Assembly (NCBI RefSeq): GCF_000379185.1
Contig: NZ_KB900703.1
Coordinates: 94,499-158,498, forward strand
From: Capnocytophaga cynodegmi DSM 19736
GTDB lineage: Bacteria > Bacteroidota > Bacteroidia > Flavobacteriales > Flavobacteriaceae
Reading direction: 5' to 3'
Length of the DNA: 64,000 nucleotides
In this document: positions 16,067-22,683 of the stretch, piece after piece
Layout: every line of letters starts with the position of its first letter
How positions within the stretch are numbered: position 1 is the stretch's first letter
The notes under the pieces: model-generated
Seen by the model: the letters and a program-made list of their open reading frames with translations, nothing else
The model's database searches: none
Told to the model about the DNA's origin: nothing
Made by a program: the position numbers and the translations under genes

Positions 16067-16207
16067 AGATAAAAAAGCGATTCTGTATATCTATTTTTAC
16101 AAAATTGCGTAATTCCTAATTTCTTATTTTGTATTAATCATAACGTTAAGGTAATAAAAGTGAAAGATTTTTCTTCTGAATAAACAGATTGATGATTTTT
16201 CTAATAA

Positions 16208-16235
16208 ATAAACGCTCCACAATCGGAGCGTTTAT
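16208..16235 (-). terminator. Terminator after the DoxX gene
   Basis: ATAAACGCTCC (16208-16218) pairs with GGAGCGTTTAT (16225-16235) around a 6-base loop. Confidence 0.75.
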
Positions 16236-16256
16236 AATTCTGATTTTATTTATTTT

Positions 16257-16667
16257 TTAATCCCACTGATTATTCGTGGATAGAGCGTATTTTCCACCGC
16301 CCGTAAAAGCTAATGACAAGGCTCCGAAGAGGAACAATCCTGCAAGTTCTGCCACCCAACCGCCGTGCTGCGTGAGGGCAAAAAGGTTGTCGTATCCTAA
16401 GAACAGAATCATTAAACCTGTGGCTGCCAATACCAATGCCGAGATACGCGTACGGAAACCAATTACGATGAGTAGCGGTGCAATGATTTCTCCCACAAAA
16501 ACACCATAGCTGATAAACGTTGGTAATCCTTTGGCTTCCAAAAGCGACTGAATGTACCCTAATGCTCCTGAGTTCAGTAATTTATGGATTCCGTGTGGAA
16601 TCATTAGCAGTCCTACGGACAGACGAAGAATTAAAAGTCCTAAATCTTTGTTTTGAAATATGTTCAT
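16257..16667 (-). CDS. DoxX-family membrane protein
   Basis: A 136-residue inner-membrane protein with four hydrophobic helices. The opening LLILRLSVGLLMIPHGIHKL and the central FISYGVFVGEIIAPLLIVIGF match the DoxX family. DoxX-type proteins are linked to thiol and oxidative stress and sometimes to quinone chemistry, without one defined reaction. It begins 15 bases after the stop of a pirin gene on the same strand, so the two are likely co-transcribed and part of the local redox cluster. Confidence 0.88.
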   Translation of the reverse strand: MNIFQNKDLGLLILRLSVGLLMIPHGIHKLLNSGALGYIQSLLEAKGLPTFISYGVFVGEIIAPLLIVIGFRTRISALVLAATGLMILFLGYDNLFALTQHGGWVAELAGLFLFGALSLAFTGGGKYALSTNNQWD

Positions 16668-16682
16668 TTTATTTTAATTTTT

Positions 16683-17492
16683 TTATGGCAATTGCATTGG
16701 CACTTCCATCAACAGAACTTGTGAATCTTCAAGAGCTTGTAAATTAAATTCTGAAGTATCGTAAATTCCGTAACCATCTCTTTGGTCTAATACTTGGTCG
16801 CCTATTTTTGCTTTCCCTTTGATAACGAATACATACACTCCATTACCTTCTTTATTTAGCTTGTACGTTTTTGAGTTTCCGGAGGTAAAGTTCGCCATAT
16901 TGAACCACGCATCTTGGTGAATCCATACGCCTGCGTCATCAGGGTTAGGCGATAAAATTTGTTGGAAATCGTTGATTTTCTTATCTTTTTCGATATTGAT
17001 TTGATCGTAACGAGGTTTAACTCCTCTTTGACGAGGCAAAACCCAAATTTGCAAGAATTTCACAGTCTCACCTTGGTTGCCGTTCATTTCGCTGTGCATA
17101 ATTCCCGTTCCGGCACTCATCACTTGGATTTCTCCTTTACGAATAATCCCTTCATTACCCATACTATCGCCGTGTTTTAGGTCGCCCTCCAAAGGAATAC
17201 TGATGATTTCCATATCGCGGTGTGGGTGTGTTCCGAAGCCCATTCCACCTTTTACGGTATCGTCATTTAATACACGAAGAACACCGAAGTTCATTCTCTG
17301 TGGGTTGTAATATTCTGCAAAGCTAAAAGTGTGGTAACTGTTTAACCATCCGTGGTTTGCGTGTCCTCTGCTGTCTGCTTTATGATAAACTGCTTTCATT
17401 TGTTTGTTGTTTTTATTGTTTGATTTTGTTTTTTGTCCGAAACTGTAACTGCTCAAAAGAGCTACACCTAAAAAGAATAAAATTTTTCGCAT
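16683..17492 (-). CDS. Pirin-family protein with N-terminal signal sequence
   Basis: A 269-residue bicupin of the pirin/YhhW family. The N-terminal cupin holds the metal ligands in THPHRDMEI and the HSEMNGNQGE segment, typical of YhhW-like quercetinases. Unlike usual pirins, which are cytosolic, it begins with a hydrophobic signal-like stretch (residues 2-17, ending SSYSFGQ), then a Lys/Asn-rich linker, and the canonical pirin start MKAVYHKADSRGH lies at residue 32. Either the protein is exported, or that inner Met (17399) is the true start. A TATCTTTG -7 element at 17536-17529, 37 bases upstream of the first ATG, supports transcription of the longer form. DoxX follows. Confidence 0.87.
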   Translation of the reverse strand: MRKILFFLGVALLSSYSFGQKTKSNNKNNKQMKAVYHKADSRGHANHGWLNSYHTFSFAEYYNPQRMNFGVLRVLNDDTVKGGMGFGTHPHRDMEIISIPLEGDLKHGDSMGNEGIIRKGEIQVMSAGTGIMHSEMNGNQGETVKFLQIWVLPRQRGVKPRYDQINIEKDKKINDFQQILSPNPDDAGVWIHQDAWFNMANFTSGNSKTYKLNKEGNGVYVFVIKGKAKIGDQVLDQRDGYGIYDTSEFNLQALEDSQVLLMEVPMQLP

Positions 17493-17528
17493 CGATTTAA
17501 TTTTTTTAATACTTCGTTATTGATGATG

Positions 17529-17536
17529 CAAAGATA
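17529..17536 (-). promoter_or_regulatory. -7 promoter element of the pirin-DoxX operon
   Basis: On the minus strand this reads TATCTTTG (TANNTTTG), 37 bases upstream of the pirin ATG. Confidence 0.55.
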
Positions 17537-17725
17537 CTACGGACATCCACCTCCAAACATTGATATAAATCAAGAAAGAATATCTTCTGAAATAACTTAT
17601 TCCTTCAGTATTTTAATATATTGAAATATAAATAATTACTTATTCACTCTAAAAGAATAAAATCTGTATAAACAAGGCAAATGTAGAAGTTTTATTGATT
17701 ATATGCAAGGGGGTGTTTTAAAAAC

Positions 17726-17755
17726 AAAAAAGTCGGTTTTTGACCGACTTTTAAA
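17726..17755 (-). terminator. Terminator after the OsmC gene
   Basis: AGTCGGT (17731-17737) pairs with ACCGACT (17743-17749), with an A-run on the plus strand that gives a T-run on the minus strand. Confidence 0.75.
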
Positions 17756-17781
17756 TTTATAAACTTTACGAAAACCCAAAC

Positions 17782-18177
17782 TTATACGATTTCGGTTTGT
17801 ATTTCTATCTGATTGGTAAGTAGCTTGTGTATTGGGCAAGATTCTGCTACTTTGTGCAGTCTTTCGATTTGTTTTTCGTCCAGATTGCCTTTGAAATGTA
17901 TTTTTCGGGAAAACACCGCTTGGCATTCGGTGGCGTTGTTTTCTATATCTACATCTATTTCAATGCTTTCCACTTCCCATTCCTTCCGATCCATAAATAT
18001 TTTCAAAGTGGCAGCGGTGCAACTTGCCAATGAACTCGCCAATACTTCCAGCGGGTTAAAACCCTTATTTTGTCCGCCCAAACTTACAGGTTCGTCGGTA
18101 ATTATCTTATTTTCACCTGCTACAATTTCCGTATAGAAATTGGTTTTTCCTAATGTTGCTTTTACACTTGCTTTCAT
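17782..18177 (-). CDS. OsmC/Ohr-family peroxidase
   Basis: A 131-residue cytosolic OsmC-family protein that reduces organic hydroperoxides with a Cys pair. Both Cys are visible: one in LASCTAATL and one in AESCPIHKLL, the pattern of the OsmC/YhfA branch. The ATG at 18177 was chosen over an in-frame TTG 11 codons upstream, which falls in a repeat-like intergenic segment. It is the last gene of a probable three-gene run with the acetyltransferase and the FMN reductase. Confidence 0.88.
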   Translation of the reverse strand: MKASVKATLGKTNFYTEIVAGENKIITDEPVSLGGQNKGFNPLEVLASSLASCTAATLKIFMDRKEWEVESIEIDVDIENNATECQAVFSRKIHFKGNLDEKQIERLHKVAESCPIHKLLTNQIEIQTEIV

Positions 18178-18180
18178 TTT

Positions 18181-18217
18181 TCTAAGCTTTAAGCTATATG
18201 TCGTAAGCAATAAGCTA
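18181..18217. repeat. AAGCTT/TAAGC-rich intergenic repeat segment
   Basis: The 37 bases between the OsmC and acetyltransferase genes contain TAAGCTTTAAGCTA and CAATAAGCTA, several tandem variants of a TAAGCT word. It resembles short dispersed intergenic repeats of flavobacteria. No second copy was noticed in this window. Confidence 0.35.
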
Positions 18218-18249
18218 GTTATTTTAACTATTCTTATTATTTTCCTTGC

Positions 18250-18567
18250 CTACAACTTATCGTAAGCGGGGAATTTCGGACTTACGATGCGTTTCCATTC
18301 GGGATGTTTTTGGATGAATGCAAACACATACGGGCAATACGGCATCAGTTGTTTTCCGCTTTCTTCGATGTAGTGTAGCGTTTTTTCTACCAATGCTGCG
18401 GCCGTTCCCGTTCCTGCCAATTCCGCTGCCGCTTCGGTGTGTGTCAGGGCAATAAAACTATCTCTTTCCTCGAAATCGATAAAGGCAAGATGACCGTTGT
18501 TTTCGAGTTCAAAACGATTTTTTTCATCGTTTTTTACCAATGGTAAATGTTCTAATTCGGGTTTCAC
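18250..18567 (-). CDS. Short GNAT-like N-acetyltransferase (YjdJ type)
   Basis: A 105-residue compact acetyltransferase-fold protein. AELAGTGTAAALVEKTL is a degenerate acetyl-CoA pyrophosphate-binding loop (normally Q/RxxGxG/A), and PYCPYVFAFIQKHPEW is the typical C-terminal signature of the YjdJ/GTLF-type group. The gene starts with GTG at 18567, whose G is also the last base of the upstream TAG stop, so translation is probably coupled to the FMN reductase. The substrate is unknown. Confidence 0.85.
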   Translation of the reverse strand: MKPELEHLPLVKNDEKNRFELENNGHLAFIDFEERDSFIALTHTEAAAELAGTGTAAALVEKTLHYIEESGKQLMPYCPYVFAFIQKHPEWKRIVSPKFPAYDKL

Positions 18568-19100
18568 TATTGTGCGATTTGTTGTTTAAAGTTTTCTATC
18601 GTGTTGATATGCTCTTGTTTCAATTCAGGATTGGTAATTCCTTCATTGGCATCGAAATTCTGTCCGAACTTCGGCAAAGAGAATACCCCTTTGATATTTC
18701 CGCCGTAGTGAGGAAGCGTTTTTTGAGCCACATCTAAAACATTTTTACCGCCGTATCCGCCCGGTGAAGTTGCCATAATTAGCATCGGTTTATCTTGGAA
18801 AACGCTCTTATTGATACGCGAAGCCCAGTCGAAAACATTTTTGAAAGCTGCTGCAAAATTTCCGTTGTGTTCTGCAAACGAACAAACGATGGCATCAGCT
18901 TCTTCTATACACTGCAAAAATTTATGTGCCTGTTCCGGAGTCCCTTTTTTCTCCTCATCGGAAGAGTAAATCGGCATAGAATAGTCGTTTAAATCCAACA
19001 AGTTGATGTCGCTTTCCCCGAAATGCGTTAGGGTGTGTTCTACTAATTTTTTGTTGATGGAAGTAGAAGATGTACTTCCTGCAAAAGCTACTATTTTCAT
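18567..19100 (-). CDS. NADPH-dependent FMN reductase family protein
   Basis: A 177-residue flavodoxin-fold oxidoreductase. The N-terminal AGSTSSTSINKKL is the FMN phosphate-binding loop, and TSPGGYGGKNVLD is the second flavin-contact loop. Family members reduce quinones, chromate, azo dyes or FMN using NAD(P)H. It is the first gene of a run with the short acetyltransferase (1-base overlap) and OsmC. The neighbourhood suggests a role in handling quinones or electrophiles. Confidence 0.88.
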   Translation of the reverse strand: MKIVAFAGSTSSTSINKKLVEHTLTHFGESDINLLDLNDYSMPIYSSDEEKKGTPEQAHKFLQCIEEADAIVCSFAEHNGNFAAAFKNVFDWASRINKSVFQDKPMLIMATSPGGYGGKNVLDVAQKTLPHYGGNIKGVFSLPKFGQNFDANEGITNPELKQEHINTIENFKQQIAQ

Positions 19101-19240
19101 TGTTTTAATATTAAATTTTCAGGGTGTAAAGGTATTTCTTTTCGTTAGATTTTTCATTGATATGGGTCAAGAAAGTTTTTAAATATGGTATTGTTCATTT
19201 TTTTAAATTTTCATTACAAAATTAAGTTGATATTGGATAA

Positions 19241-20125
19241 TTATTTCAAATTATCCCGTTTCATTCCTACTCTTCTCATTGGTTCATCATTTTTTTCTTC
19301 TGATAGTGATATAAAATCATCTAACATCATCCGTGTCCGTCTATACCTTGAATATAAATCCTTTCGAAAATTGGGTAATGAACTCATGCCTTCTTCTATA
19401 AAATATTCCAATGGTTTATGTAAATCTTTGATACACTCAATTAATTCGAAATTTCTTGTTTCATAAGCTACTTGTGTCAATCTTTCAACAGAGTTAATCA
19501 TATCTTCAAAAGCTCTTGGATTGAATTCTCTTTCTCTTTCAAATCTTCTATTAATTGATAACTCTCTAGTTAAAGAAAGGATTTCTTCAATCAAATCTCT
19601 TTCTGTTCTTAGCCCTTTATTCTCTATACTTTTTGCACTTTCTTCTACTTCTTTAATCTGCGACTCCAATTTTGTCCACCACATATCAAAGACGCTATCA
19701 ATGACATCAGGAGATAACGAGTTTTCCCCTAATTCTGAATTAATCATATTAACAACTTTTTTCATTTCTGTTTTTGAAAATTTAGCTGCTTGAAATTGAA
19801 CTAAGGGACCTTGTATATCAGAGGGTTCAACACCAAAAAGTAGCGGTACAACTTTTGATTTTTCAATATTCTTGGATAAAGCTCCTGCTTCAAACATTAT
19901 CCAGCTACTATCTAAGTTATCTTTTGTAAGGCAAATTATGCCAATTTTTGAGGCATCTAGTTCTTTTGATATTTCTGTACTCCAACGAGTTCCTTTAGTT
20001 ATATCGTCAGGAGAATAGTAGGGTTTAACTGCTTGGATAACACCAGGTATCCATTGTCTGAAAATTTCGGCAATATTTTTTGAAAGTTCTCCTGACCAGC
20101 TAATAAATATTTTCATTTTATTCAT
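19241..20125 (-). CDS. TIR-domain protein, putative NADase or defence-related
   Basis: A 294-residue soluble protein. Residues 4-125 form a TIR domain of the bacterial TIR_2 type: it starts KIFISWSG, contains a TRWSTEISKELDASKIGIICLT strand-helix unit, and has Trp75-x3-Glu79 followed by AGALSK. Glu79 lies where the catalytic glutamate of NAD-cleaving TIR domains (for example SARM1) is found. The C-terminal ~170 residues are mostly helical, with a likely coiled-coil region. Hand counts of three 60-base lines in the gene gave 17, 19 and 19 G+C, against 27 and 31 in flanking gene lines, which suggests recent acquisition. A TATCTTTG -7 element precedes it. No recognised defence partner lies beside it. 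NADase activity is inferred. Confidence 0.82.
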   Translation of the reverse strand: MNKMKIFISWSGELSKNIAEIFRQWIPGVIQAVKPYYSPDDITKGTRWSTEISKELDASKIGIICLTKDNLDSSWIMFEAGALSKNIEKSKVVPLLFGVEPSDIQGPLVQFQAAKFSKTEMKKVVNMINSELGENSLSPDVIDSVFDMWWTKLESQIKEVEESAKSIENKGLRTERDLIEEILSLTRELSINRRFEREREFNPRAFEDMINSVERLTQVAYETRNFELIECIKDLHKPLEYFIEEGMSSLPNFRKDLYSRYRRTRMMLDDFISLSEEKNDEPMRRVGMKRDNLK

Positions 20126-20159
20126 AATTTTAATTATACCTTAATTTTTATATCTGTCG

Positions 20160-20167
20160 CAAAGATA
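20160..20167 (-). promoter_or_regulatory. -7 promoter element of the TIR gene
   Basis: On the minus strand this reads TATCTTTG (TANNTTTG), 35 bases upstream of the ATG at 20125. Confidence 0.5.
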
Positions 20168-20220
20168 TAATTTTTTCGTACCAAAAAAACTTCAATATTA
20201 TAAAATGCACCAAAAATTAA

Positions 20221-20245
20221 AAAACCATCCCTTTCAGGACGGCTT
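20221..20245 (-). terminator. Terminator after the second pirin gene
   Basis: CCATCC (20225-20230) pairs with GGACGG (20237-20242) with one G-T wobble. The minus strand then runs into a T-rich tract. Confidence 0.55.
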
Positions 20246-20255
20246 TTAGTTAAAA

Positions 20256-21155
20256 TTATTTACTTTTCAGCGGATAGGTAGGCAGTGGCACGAAATCGTC
20301 TTCATCGTCAATGACTTTTGGGAAGGCTTCGTGGTTTTGTTCTTTCCAGTTTTGTTTAGCTTTTTCTATTTTTTCTTTGTCGGAGCTCACGAAATTCCAA
20401 AACATAAATCGTTCTTCAGGAAAAGGCTCTCCACCGAAAATATACACCACCGAATTTTCACTCATCTCAAACTCGCATAACTTACTGTTTTTAGCCACTA
20501 ACAATTGTTTAGAGCCATAGTCGTTCCCCTCAATGTTCACCGTGCCTTCCAGTACATACATTGCCGCTTCTCCGTAGAGGTCTTCGCCGATGTGGAGTTT
20601 GGTTTTCTCCTTGGCTTTCAGTTCAATGAAAAACAACGGGCTATGCACAGGTACGGGCGATTTTTTCCCAAAAGCCTCTCCAGCAATCAGTTTTACCTGT
20701 ACGCCATTTTCCTCCCAATGCGGAAGCTCCTCCGCTTCGATATGATGAAAACTAGGGTCGCAATCTTCCAAATGTTTCGGTAGAGCCACCCAAATTTGGA
20801 GTCCGTGTAGTTTTTTCTCCGTATTTCTTAGATAATCAGGTGTTCTTTCGGAATGCACCACGCCTTTTCCTGCCGTCATCCAATTGACCGCTCCAGGCTG
20901 AATTTCCATTTGCGAACCGATGCTATCTCTGTGGAAAATAGACCCCTCGAACAAATAAGTGAGCGTAGAAAGCCCAATATGCGGATGCGGTGCCACATCC
21001 AAATTCTGATAATCTTTCAGGTCGGCAGGTCCCATATGGTCGATGAACGCGAAAGGTCCTACCGCTCTTTTTTCGCGAAAAGGAAGTAATCTTCCTACCA
21101 AAAAGTTGCCGATATCTGCTGCTTTTTCTTCTAATATAATTCCGATGTTTGACAT
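20256..21155 (-). CDS. Pirin-family bicupin protein (cytosolic form)
   Basis: A 299-residue pirin. The N-terminal cupin has the conserved PFAFIDHMGPADL and APHPHIGLSTLTY segments, which carry the metal-binding His pair, then HSERTPD as in other pirins. The C-terminal cupin spans about 165-270, and the tail has the pirin-typical RFMFWNFVSSDKEKIEKAK segment. It has no signal peptide, unlike the other pirin in this window. Pirins bind Fe(II), and some degrade quercetin or act as redox sensors. It is monocistronic, with its own TANNTTTG element. Confidence 0.9.
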   Translation of the reverse strand: MSNIGIILEEKAADIGNFLVGRLLPFREKRAVGPFAFIDHMGPADLKDYQNLDVAPHPHIGLSTLTYLFEGSIFHRDSIGSQMEIQPGAVNWMTAGKGVVHSERTPDYLRNTEKKLHGLQIWVALPKHLEDCDPSFHHIEAEELPHWEENGVQVKLIAGEAFGKKSPVPVHSPLFFIELKAKEKTKLHIGEDLYGEAAMYVLEGTVNIEGNDYGSKQLLVAKNSKLCEFEMSENSVVYIFGGEPFPEERFMFWNFVSSDKEKIEKAKQNWKEQNHEAFPKVIDDEDDFVPLPTYPLKSK

Positions 21156-21183
21156 ATTTTTTGATTTTAATTGTTCTATGATG

Positions 21184-21191
21184 CAAAAGTA
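21184..21191 (-). promoter_or_regulatory. -7 promoter element of the second pirin gene
   Basis: On the minus strand this reads TACTTTTG (TANNTTTG), 29 bases upstream of the ATG at 21155. Confidence 0.55.
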
Positions 21192-21248
21192 GCGTATTTT
21201 TTATTCCTAACTATTGACATAGGACAATAACGAAATTATATTTTTAAA

Positions 21249-21288
21249 CCACATAGAAACATAGGTTTTTTCTATATTTCTATGTGAT
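21249..21288 (-). terminator. Terminator after the Crp/Fnr gene
   Basis: A long imperfect stem (CACATAGAAAC-ATAG with CTAT-ATTTCTATGTG) is downstream of the regulator gene, with T-rich flanks. Confidence 0.65.
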
Positions 21289-21308
21289 TTTTATTTCTAC
21301 GAATTTTT

Positions 21309-21881
21309 CTATTTCTTAGCTTGTTTAGCTCTGATACGGCTTAGCGTTTCAGGAGTTACCCCCAAAAAGGAAGCGATAGAATACTGCGGAACGCATTGTA
21401 CCAATTTGGCGTATTTTTCCAAAAATCGTTCGTAGCGTTCTTGTGCGGAGAGTGCCAATACAGAATAAATTCGCTCCTGATAATTTTGCAGATGTCGTTC
21501 TAAAAGTATGCGATAGGCTCGTTCCAATTGAGGAATATCTTTGAGGAGCTGTTGTTTTTTGTTATAAGAAATGGTGTAAACTTCGCTATCTTCCAAAGCC
21601 TCTACAAACATTTTACTCGGGGTACGACGATTGAAACTTTCAAAATCACCAATCCACCAATGCTCTATGGCAAAAGACAAGATAATTTCATTGCCTTGAA
21701 AGTCGATATAATAATTTTTAAGACAGCCCTTTTTTACAAAAAACTCAGATTCACAAACCTCTCCCGAACGCAACGGAAAATCTCCTTTGGAAAAAGATTT
21801 TAATTCAAAACTATTATCTATCAAGTTTTTTTCTTCGATAGAGAGTTCCACCAACTTTGAAAAATATTCACTAACCATCAT
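21309..21881 (-). CDS. Crp/Fnr-family transcriptional regulator
   Basis: A 190-residue regulator with an N-terminal cyclic-nucleotide-binding-fold domain (about 20-115) and a C-terminal helix-turn-helix (IASFLGVTPETLSRIRAKQ). It lacks the FNR Cys cluster and the canonical cAMP phosphate-binding arginine motif, so the ligand is unknown. This short form is frequent in Bacteroidota, often next to stress genes. It sits between a pirin gene and yceI on the same strand and is a plausible local regulator of the redox cluster. Start: the first of two tandem ATG codons at 21881. Confidence 0.88.
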   Translation of the reverse strand: MMVSEYFSKLVELSIEEKNLIDNSFELKSFSKGDFPLRSGEVCESEFFVKKGCLKNYYIDFQGNEIILSFAIEHWWIGDFESFNRRTPSKMFVEALEDSEVYTISYNKKQQLLKDIPQLERAYRILLERHLQNYQERIYSVLALSAQERYERFLEKYAKLVQCVPQYSIASFLGVTPETLSRIRAKQAKK

Positions 21882-21952
21882 TGCCTATCAATTTTGGAGG
21901 TAAAGATAATACAAATTTGGTTAGAAATTTTCTGTTGAAACAAAAAATCAGA

Positions 21953-21975
21953 GCTTTTACAATCATTGTAAAAGC
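21953..21975 (-). terminator. Terminator after the YceI gene
   Basis: GCTTTTACAAT (21953-21963) pairs with ATTGTAAAAGC (21965-21975). On the minus strand a T-rich tract follows. Confidence 0.65.
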
Positions 21976-22010
21976 CCTGAGATTAGTTAGTGATTGAGTT
22001 TTATTTATTT

Positions 22011-22538
22011 TTAGTTTTGTTTTGCAAATTGCAATTCTCCTTCGATTCTTACTTCATCGCTTACCAAAACACCTCCTGTTTCCAAAGCGGCATTCCAGTT
22101 AAGTCCGAAATCTTTTCTGTTGATTTTTCCTTTTACAGAAAAACCTAATTTTTCATTTCCCCAAGGGTCTTTGCTTACCCCTCCGAAATCTACCGCTAAA
22201 GCTACTTCTTTGGTAACATCTTTTATGGTAAGGTTTCCTACCAAAGTGAACTCGTCACTTGATTTTTTGGTAAGAGAAGTTCCTTCAAATTTCATTTCTG
22301 GGAAGTTTTCTACATCGAAGAAATCGGCACTACGCAAGTGGTTGTCTCTGTCTTCGTTGTTAGTAAAAATAGAAGTAGTTTTTACCTGTGCATTTACTTT
22401 TGAAGTAGCGAAATCTTCGCCAAGAATTTCCACTGAAAAATCTTTGAAACTTCCTTTTACATTAGAAATCATAAGGTGTTTTACCTTGAAATTCAATTCA
22501 CTGTGAGCGGTATCTAATGACCATTTTACTGTTGACAT
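22011..22538 (-). CDS. YceI-family lipid-binding protein
   Basis: A 175-residue lipocalin-like protein of the YceI family. The opening WSLDTAHSELNFKVKHLMISNVKGSF and the central DNHLRSADFFDVENFPEMKF are clear family signatures. YceI proteins bind polyisoprenoids or long-chain amides in a barrel. No signal peptide is present, so this copy is probably cytosolic, unlike E. coli YceI. It has its own TANNTTTG element and a terminator. Its place beside pirin, Crp/Fnr and OsmC genes suggests stress-linked expression. Confidence 0.92.
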   Translation of the reverse strand: MSTVKWSLDTAHSELNFKVKHLMISNVKGSFKDFSVEILGEDFATSKVNAQVKTTSIFTNNEDRDNHLRSADFFDVENFPEMKFEGTSLTKKSSDEFTLVGNLTIKDVTKEVALAVDFGGVSKDPWGNEKLGFSVKGKINRKDFGLNWNAALETGGVLVSDEVRIEGELQFAKQN

Positions 22539-22563
22539 ATCTTCTTTAGTTTTAAATTCGGGG

Positions 22564-22571
22564 CAAAGGTA
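22564..22571 (-). promoter_or_regulatory. -7 promoter element of the YceI gene
   Basis: On the minus strand this reads TACCTTTG (TANNTTTG), 26 bases upstream of the ATG at 22538. Confidence 0.55.
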
Positions 22572-22683
22572 AGCGGTTTTTTACTCTCCGTCATTGATGT
22601 AAGTCAAGAAGTGATTTTTAGGCTTAAATTCGAAAAAATAAGTATATATTCTTCGTATTAAAAAGCTAATTGATTTATGTGAA

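Follow-up and report, generated by a model that had tools for sequence, protein, structure and literature searches.

A partnerless TIR-domain gene in a variable slot of a redox gene cluster in Capnocytophaga cynodegmi, a candidate one-gene anti-phage system

Gene content of the locus

The stretch of Capnocytophaga cynodegmi DSM 19736 DNA analysed here (64,000 nucleotides, hereafter the window) contains a redox gene cluster on the minus strand (16257..21881). Its genes encode DoxX, a quercetinase-type pirin, OsmC, a GNAT protein, an FMN reductase, a TIR protein, a pirin and a CRP-like regulator. The TIR gene (19241..20125, minus strand) is a real open reading frame of 294 amino acids, counted from the first ATG. 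As the first-pass annotation had described, it lies between the FMN reductase gene on the left (18567..19100, minus strand; PF03358) and the pirin gene on the right (20256..21155, minus strand; PF02678), with gaps of 140 bp and 130 bp, respectively. The TIR_2 domain occurred once in the genome (2.66 Mb, 99.99% complete). No tRNA was found in the window.

An alternative start at Met4 (base 20116) gives a protein of 291 amino acids, in which the residues discussed below as Trp75 and Glu79 become Trp72 and Glu76. In most relatives the protein begins at the residue corresponding to Met4 (MKIFISWSG), and judging from these sequences the true start of the gene may be at 20116. A terminator-like hairpin (20220..20247, minus strand) is located at the end of the pirin gene, between it and the TIR gene. 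The sequence TATCTTTG (20160..20167, minus strand), 34 bases ahead of the first ATG, matches the TAnnTTTG element, which we take to be the Bacteroidota -7 box. Because the hairpin closes the pirin gene and the TAnnTTTG match precedes the TIR gene, the latter is probably a transcription unit of its own. Both elements are consensus matches only: terminator-like hairpins numbered three in 3 kb versus 1.8 expected in shuffles, and the TAnnTTTG motif was common in the window (146 versus 97 expected), which makes the match upstream of the TIR gene suggestive only.

Domain architecture and conserved residues

The TIR domain comprised residues 4–133 (19727..20116, minus strand), as delimited by Pfam TIR_2, the AF2 fold, structural matches and invariant residues. 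TIR_2 scored 36.5 bits over residues 6–118 (curated cut-off 28) and Pfam TIR 24 bits (cut-off 21.3), which confirms the domain identity proposed in the first-pass annotation. The Trp75-x3-Glu79 motif noted there is in frame, with the codons of Trp75 at 19901-19903 and of Glu79 at 19889-19891 (minus strand). Trp75, Glu79, Gly81, Ala82 and Arg187 were invariant in the family alignment (80/80 sequences). In phmmer alignments, Glu79 paired with the corresponding glutamate of plant TIR domains; it is the predicted catalytic glutamate. The TIR domain is followed by linker helices (residues 134–200; 19526..19726, minus strand) with a family motif around R173-ERDLIEEIL-R187, in which E180, E181 and L183 were nearly invariant among the 80 sequences, next to the fully conserved Arg187.

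An AF2 model of the protein, built with 80 sequences, had a mean pLDDT of 88.8 and a pTM of 0.64. It showed the TIR domain, then two linker helices (residues 139–168 and 175–198), then three C-terminal helices. Foldseek and VIA-align both matched the flavodoxin-like TIR fold in the model. The top Foldseek matches in the PDB were SPARTA TIR-APAZ chains (3.4e-6) and plant TIRs. With VIA-align, the best-matching folds were NAD-cleaving TIRs: SPARTA (Z 14.0), SARM1 (Z 12.8) and SpbK (Z 12.7).

Base composition

The TIR gene has a G+C content of 31.8% (GC3 22%), the sixth lowest among the 52 open reading frames of the window. The first-pass annotation had estimated 28–32% for the gene and 45–52% for its neighbours. 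The former range holds, whereas the latter is too high: the FMN reductase and pirin genes have 40.3% and 43.9%, respectively. It had also described the gene as a low-GC insertion and had named normal codon use as part of what would refute this. Codon use is normal: compared with the rest of the window, the synonymous codon choice of the TIR gene was unremarkable (z = +1.3). The compositional outliers are its redox neighbours, namely the pirin gene (also an outlier in codon use, z = −5.6) and the genes for DoxX (43.8% G+C), the GNAT protein (43.7%) and the FMN reductase. We therefore reject the low G+C content as an argument that the gene is foreign. Compared with the remainder of their own locus, TIR genes of this family were poorer in G+C in 163 of 169 cases, with a mean difference of −9.7 points. 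The AT-rich contrast is thus real, yet by itself no mark of recent arrival, because it is a family trait and the codon use is ordinary.

A variable slot in the redox cluster

The pirin that flanks the TIR gene was found at 99–100% identity in three of 20 genomes of the genus: the window genome and two sisters, G300 (locus L029) and G301 (locus L030). Other pirin matches in the 20 genomes were paralogues of 23–37% identity. The redox cluster is common to all three genomes; the part of the window that is shared is 16206-21933 for G300 and 16205-22619 for G301. The identities of the cluster genes were 95.6–97.6% with G300 (FMN reductase 96.8%, pirin 97.6%) and 92.7–97.9% with G301 (FMN reductase 92.7%, pirin 97.9%). 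Beyond the cluster, the fetched flanks of the sisters were unlike the window, and a 16S rRNA gene is located close to the G300 copy; the cluster is therefore at different addresses in the sisters. The cluster itself is high in G+C and was found, by its pirin, in only these three of the 20 genomes.

Between the FMN reductase and pirin genes, the window segment 19192..20178 (no strand) was unmatched in both sisters, with blastn alignments to L029 and L030 breaking at 19191 and at 20176-20179. The TIR gene was thus present in one of the three genomes having the locus and absent from both sisters, which keep the flanking genes. This agrees with the insertion proposed in the first-pass annotation; the alternative raised there, that every relative would have the gene in this position, was not what we found. 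A TIR relative with 46% identity was encoded on another contig of G301, and none was found in G300. No pair of direct repeats marked the ends of the slot.

In the sisters, window positions 19191-20179 are replaced by approximately 325 bp (G300) and 540 bp (G301). The G301 slot contained an open piece of 86 codons corresponding to positions 400–484 of 489 of the PADLOC AbiP2 model (5.3e-25); AbiP2 is a DRT-type reverse transcriptase and a phage-defence gene. In the G300 slot, the last 33 codons of this piece remained, with 91% identity. By sequence, both sister slots hold a decayed C-terminal AbiP2 remnant. No AbiP2 match was found in the window (best E 0.47). The cluster offers a natural experiment: three closely related genomes have one slot in common, which holds a TIR gene in the window genome and an AbiP2 remnant in both sisters.

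G301 had a further insert between the quercetinase-type pirin and OsmC genes (L030:4495-11124). According to PADLOC matches, it encodes a type II methyltransferase (4.3e-75), a long Argonaute (pAgo_II, 6.6e-268) and the associated Aga protein (1e-125), and it also contains a DUF4420 nuclease-like gene. From the predicted gene content, we conclude that the redox cluster collects defence genes, with the TIR gene as one putative tenant. In G300, a PDDEXK_3 gene (L029:5478-5891, minus strand) lies between the OsmC and GNAT genes; its link to defence is weak (PADLOC Cas4, 2.6e-4).

Distribution and genomic neighbours of the family

Among 84,980 species genomes scanned, 553 relatives of the TIR protein were found, and the best 80 of these were used; IMG/VR gave 132, of which the best 80 were likewise used. 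Further relatives were found in 11 plasmid and four phage records. The family thus occurs in phages, prophages and plasmids, including a 4.7-kb Serratia plasmid. Its distribution is sparse. Only 12 of 299 genomes of the window's taxonomic family had a relative at E 0.001, and only four of these 299, the window genome included, had one below 1e-40. At E 1e-20, the genus of L072 had relatives in 10 of 398 genomes and the family of L051 in 7 of 394. The nearest relatives among the best 80 of 553 belonged to Flavobacterium, Taibaiella (Chitinophagaceae), Balneola and Mucilaginibacter, each beside different genes. Close relatives adjoin unrelated genes: der (by domain match), dnaX and a mutM-like gene (the last two read from sequence). 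Judging from these relatives, the gene moves between orders.

In nine of 169 loci (L033, L036 and seven viral contigs), the TIR gene was antisense and directly beside a lambdoid antiterminator Q gene, and in four of these nine lysis genes were recognised on its other side. Neighbours were surveyed as the nearest open reading frames of at least 120 amino acids on each side within 1 kb, which gave 147 proteins from 80 genomic loci. No recurrent hidden partner was found among these 147 proteins, and no PADLOC family matched more than two of them. Outside phages and the redox-cluster slot, the neighbours suggest a weak association with defence islands at most. The only neighbour to recur more than three times was a GyrB/ParE-type gene (4/147), located upstream in L051, L067, L070 and L071, which we read as a shared insertion address. 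These four loci come from roseobacter-type genomes, and the TIR gene lies directly downstream of the GyrB/ParE-type gene in each. The GyrB/ParE-type genes are 79–85% identical to one another, and PF forms the end of every one of the four TIR proteins. In the other TIR of G301 (L031:3661-4467, minus strand) the C-terminus differs, and its gene is followed by one for a 201-aa multi-TM protein without a Pfam or PADLOC match, which could be a partner of another type. A small TM protein precedes the TIR relative in L003. The neighbours in G301 (L031) and L003 may represent unrecognised partners in some relatives.

Comparison with known TIR systems

The TIR protein matched the PADLOC model TIR-TM at 3.3e-78 over residues 4–277, nearly its full length. 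The TIR of phage AC1 matched the same model (2.7e-118), and the two proteins, members of the same TIR family, shared 45% identity over residues 4–187. In PADLOC, the AC1 system consists of TIR-TM, 2TM-TIR and 1TM-TIR; in DefenseFinder it is presumably the system named Rst_2TM_1TM_TIR. The names TIR-TM and 2TM_1TM_TIR were not found in open-licence literature. In contrast to the AC1 system, which is located at a P2 hotspot, the window gene is chromosomal, lies in a redox cluster, has no 2TM or 1TM partner and encodes a diverged C-terminus. Neither 1TM-TIR nor 2TM-TIR was found among the 51 other open reading frames of the window or, at E 0.1, in the whole genome; both searches were positive in at least one of 14 control genomes. 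AC1-type partners were present in only three of 169 related loci (L032, L131 and L137, which are near-identical) and missing from 166 within the available flanks, which measured 2 kb or more on either side in 126 loci and less than 1 kb upstream in 16. According to passages of PMC9122126, E. coli C is protected against lambda and LF82_P8 by the three genes of AC1. The window gene connects a TIR family known from a single validated three-gene system on a phage with a form that lacks those partners and is far more common.

SpbK, from ICEBs1 of Bacillus subtilis, is also a single protein with a TIR NADase and a second domain; for the window protein, the NADase is predicted. The two TIR folds aligned over 147 residues with an rmsd of 3.8 and 19% identity. 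Passages of PMC12847820 describe that the N-terminal domain of SpbK binds the phage portal YonE, whereupon the TIR domains cluster and cleave NAD+, producing ADPR and N1-cADPR. SpbK is thereby a precedent for a one-gene TIR system triggered by a phage protein. Among the matches listed in a search of open-licence literature for one-gene TIR systems, most concerned plant TIR-only proteins. The domain order differs: in SpbK, as described there, the sensor is N-terminal and the TIR domain C-terminal, whereas in the window protein the TIR domain is N-terminal.

The first-pass annotation had seen no adjacent ThsA, CBASS or Argonaute partner, and indeed none was present among the open reading frames of the window. 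The TIR-APAZ protein of SPARTA, which acts with a short Argonaute, was the best structural match of the TIR domain, but no APAZ or Argonaute match was obtained for the window protein or the 51 other open reading frames. Thoeris ThsB shares the TIR fold and gave a weak profile match (E 0.061), but ThsA was absent from the window. The ThsA-type sensor STALD was not found in the genome, although this is a soft test, with no match over the cut-off in 14 control genomes. Unlike the CBASS effectors TIR-STING and TIR-SAVED, the window protein has no STING or SAVED domain, and no CD-NTase was found among the 51 other open reading frames. PHROG 13899, a viral branch with the same TIR domain and linker, matched residues 4–200 (1.2e-72), but the match ended ahead of the C-terminal region.

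A fast-evolving C-terminal region

The C-terminal helical region (residues 201–294; 19244..19525, minus strand) evolves fast and is a putative sensor. Among the best 80 of 553 relatives, the closest was that of Flavobacterium erciyesense (L037), with 78% overall identity. Amino acid identity was 91% in the TIR domain (residues 1–133, Met4 numbering) but 58% in the C-terminus (residues 191–291, same numbering), with dN values of 0.049 and 0.328, respectively. The dN/dS of the TIR domain in this comparison was approximately 0.04; the ratio is informative only there, dS being high or saturated. A conserved enzyme core with a fast-evolving C-terminus would fit a protein that combines effector and sensor.

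Modelled alone, the C-terminal region folded into four helices (pLDDT 79.9). It had no match in the PDB with Foldseek at E ≤0.001 (best 0.12), and its four matches at this threshold among viral structures did not include a notable phage relative. A profile of 80 family members matched no solved structure at E 0.001, and the C-terminal region alone gave no PADLOC match to a known sensor or any other family.

Proposed function

Our leading hypothesis is that the TIR gene works on its own as an abortive-infection system that depletes NAD in response to phages, a reading to which we assign a probability of roughly two in three. Phage defence, already suspected in the first-pass annotation, is supported by kinship, as the predicted protein and the AC1 TIR match the same PADLOC model, and by the slot, which in the sisters holds the AbiP2 remnant. 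The C-terminal helical region would recognise a phage product, or a change in the cell caused by the phage. Recognition would cluster the protein and bring TIR domains side by side, where together they would make up a complete active site around Glu79. The resulting cleavage of NAD+ would stall the infected cell before phage production. The gene would form a small transcription unit of its own in a slot of an accessory redox cluster that in other strains holds, or once held, other defence genes. We propose a single gene with the C-terminus as sensor because the AC1 partners and the SpbK layout are both lacking. That one gene would suffice is suggested by analogy with SpbK; the AC1 kin was tested as three genes. 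If the TIR protein alone protects, it would be a compact sensor-effector with a swappable C-terminus that could be matched to phage triggers.

Alternatively, the TIR protein could make a cyclic ADP-ribose-type signal, in the manner of ThsB, and an effector encoded elsewhere would kill the cell. The authors of the AC1 study proposed a messenger for this same TIR family, one that activates the membrane proteins (passages of PMC9122126), and TIR domains are capable of both activities, as the two products of SpbK illustrate. We consider this reading unlikely, given that STALD, 1TM-TIR and 2TM-TIR are missing from the whole genome (softly tested for STALD) and that the short gaps on either side of the TIR gene leave no space for a partner. 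A membrane partner of the AC1 type encoded elsewhere was rejected on the genome-wide searches at E 0.1.

Gene decay at the same place in the sister slots, together with the AC1-type partners of a few near-identical relatives, would also fit a left-over, either a gene that has outlasted the rest of a broken multi-gene system or a passenger without a present function. This is improbable: the frame is intact, the TIR domain is conserved at a dN/dS of about 0.04 against its closest relative, and relatives across several phyla likewise have no AC1-type partners. Even less credible is a stress role, in which the gene would be a functional part of the cluster and adjust NAD pools under oxidative stress. 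Its position among the DoxX, pirin, OsmC and FMN reductase genes speaks for such a role, but the same cluster has no TIR gene in either sister, a promoter-like element of its own lies behind the terminator-like hairpin, and close relatives sit beside unrelated genes.

An SSB-like tip in relatives

Seventeen of 171 TIR proteins (169 distinct loci and two repeat copies) ended in an SSB-like tip, [DE]x?[ILMV]PF, for example DDDIPF, DDLPF or DEIPF. The carriers were L005, L035, L044, L048, L051, L052, L060, L065, L066, L067, L070, L072, L084, L092, L108, L120 and L142. The window protein ends in RDNLK, and the tip is thus a feature of its relatives. In SSB, the tip DDDIPF is bound by many replication and repair proteins, as stated in the abstract of PMC5872125. 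Among the matches listed in a search of open-licence literature, nothing relevant linked the SSB tip with TIR proteins or defence.

The pattern was noticed after the fact. It occurred in only five of 1521 other open reading frames of at least 100 amino acids from the same loci (Fisher 9.5e-14, which is not an independent-sample probability, the rows being related). Three of these five were SSB proteins by Pfam. The fourth, L134:3519-4427 (minus strand), is a nucleoside-deoxyribosyltransferase/TIR-like protein that matched a PADLOC CBASS TIR effector model (2.9e-10). The fifth, L063:2490-3479 (plus strand), is a 329-aa protein encoded directly upstream of the TIR gene. When a slightly broader version of the pattern (17 rows) was mapped on a tree of 90 TIR domains, it required eight changes, at least four of them forced by well-supported branches, versus 16 changes in shuffles.

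The window gene would, in a tentative and somewhat doubtful extension of the one-gene reading, belong to a widespread partnerless TIR family of plug-in immune receptors, in which the NADase core is conserved and the C-terminus diversifies for phage cues. In part of the family, the copy of the SSB tip might dock on SSB-binding replication or recombination factors of the host or phage, and the receptor would fire when phage replication takes these over. The tips of the L134 and L063 proteins would make SSB-tip mimicry a docking module shared by several defence proteins. The tip offers a testable idea of what some TIR relatives watch.

The tip was found in only two of 80 viral loci and in two of seven matches in the family of L051; among these seven, L212 (two in-frame TGA codons) and L216 (short) did not yield a readable end. 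Of the ten family matches in Pseudomonas, three carried it.
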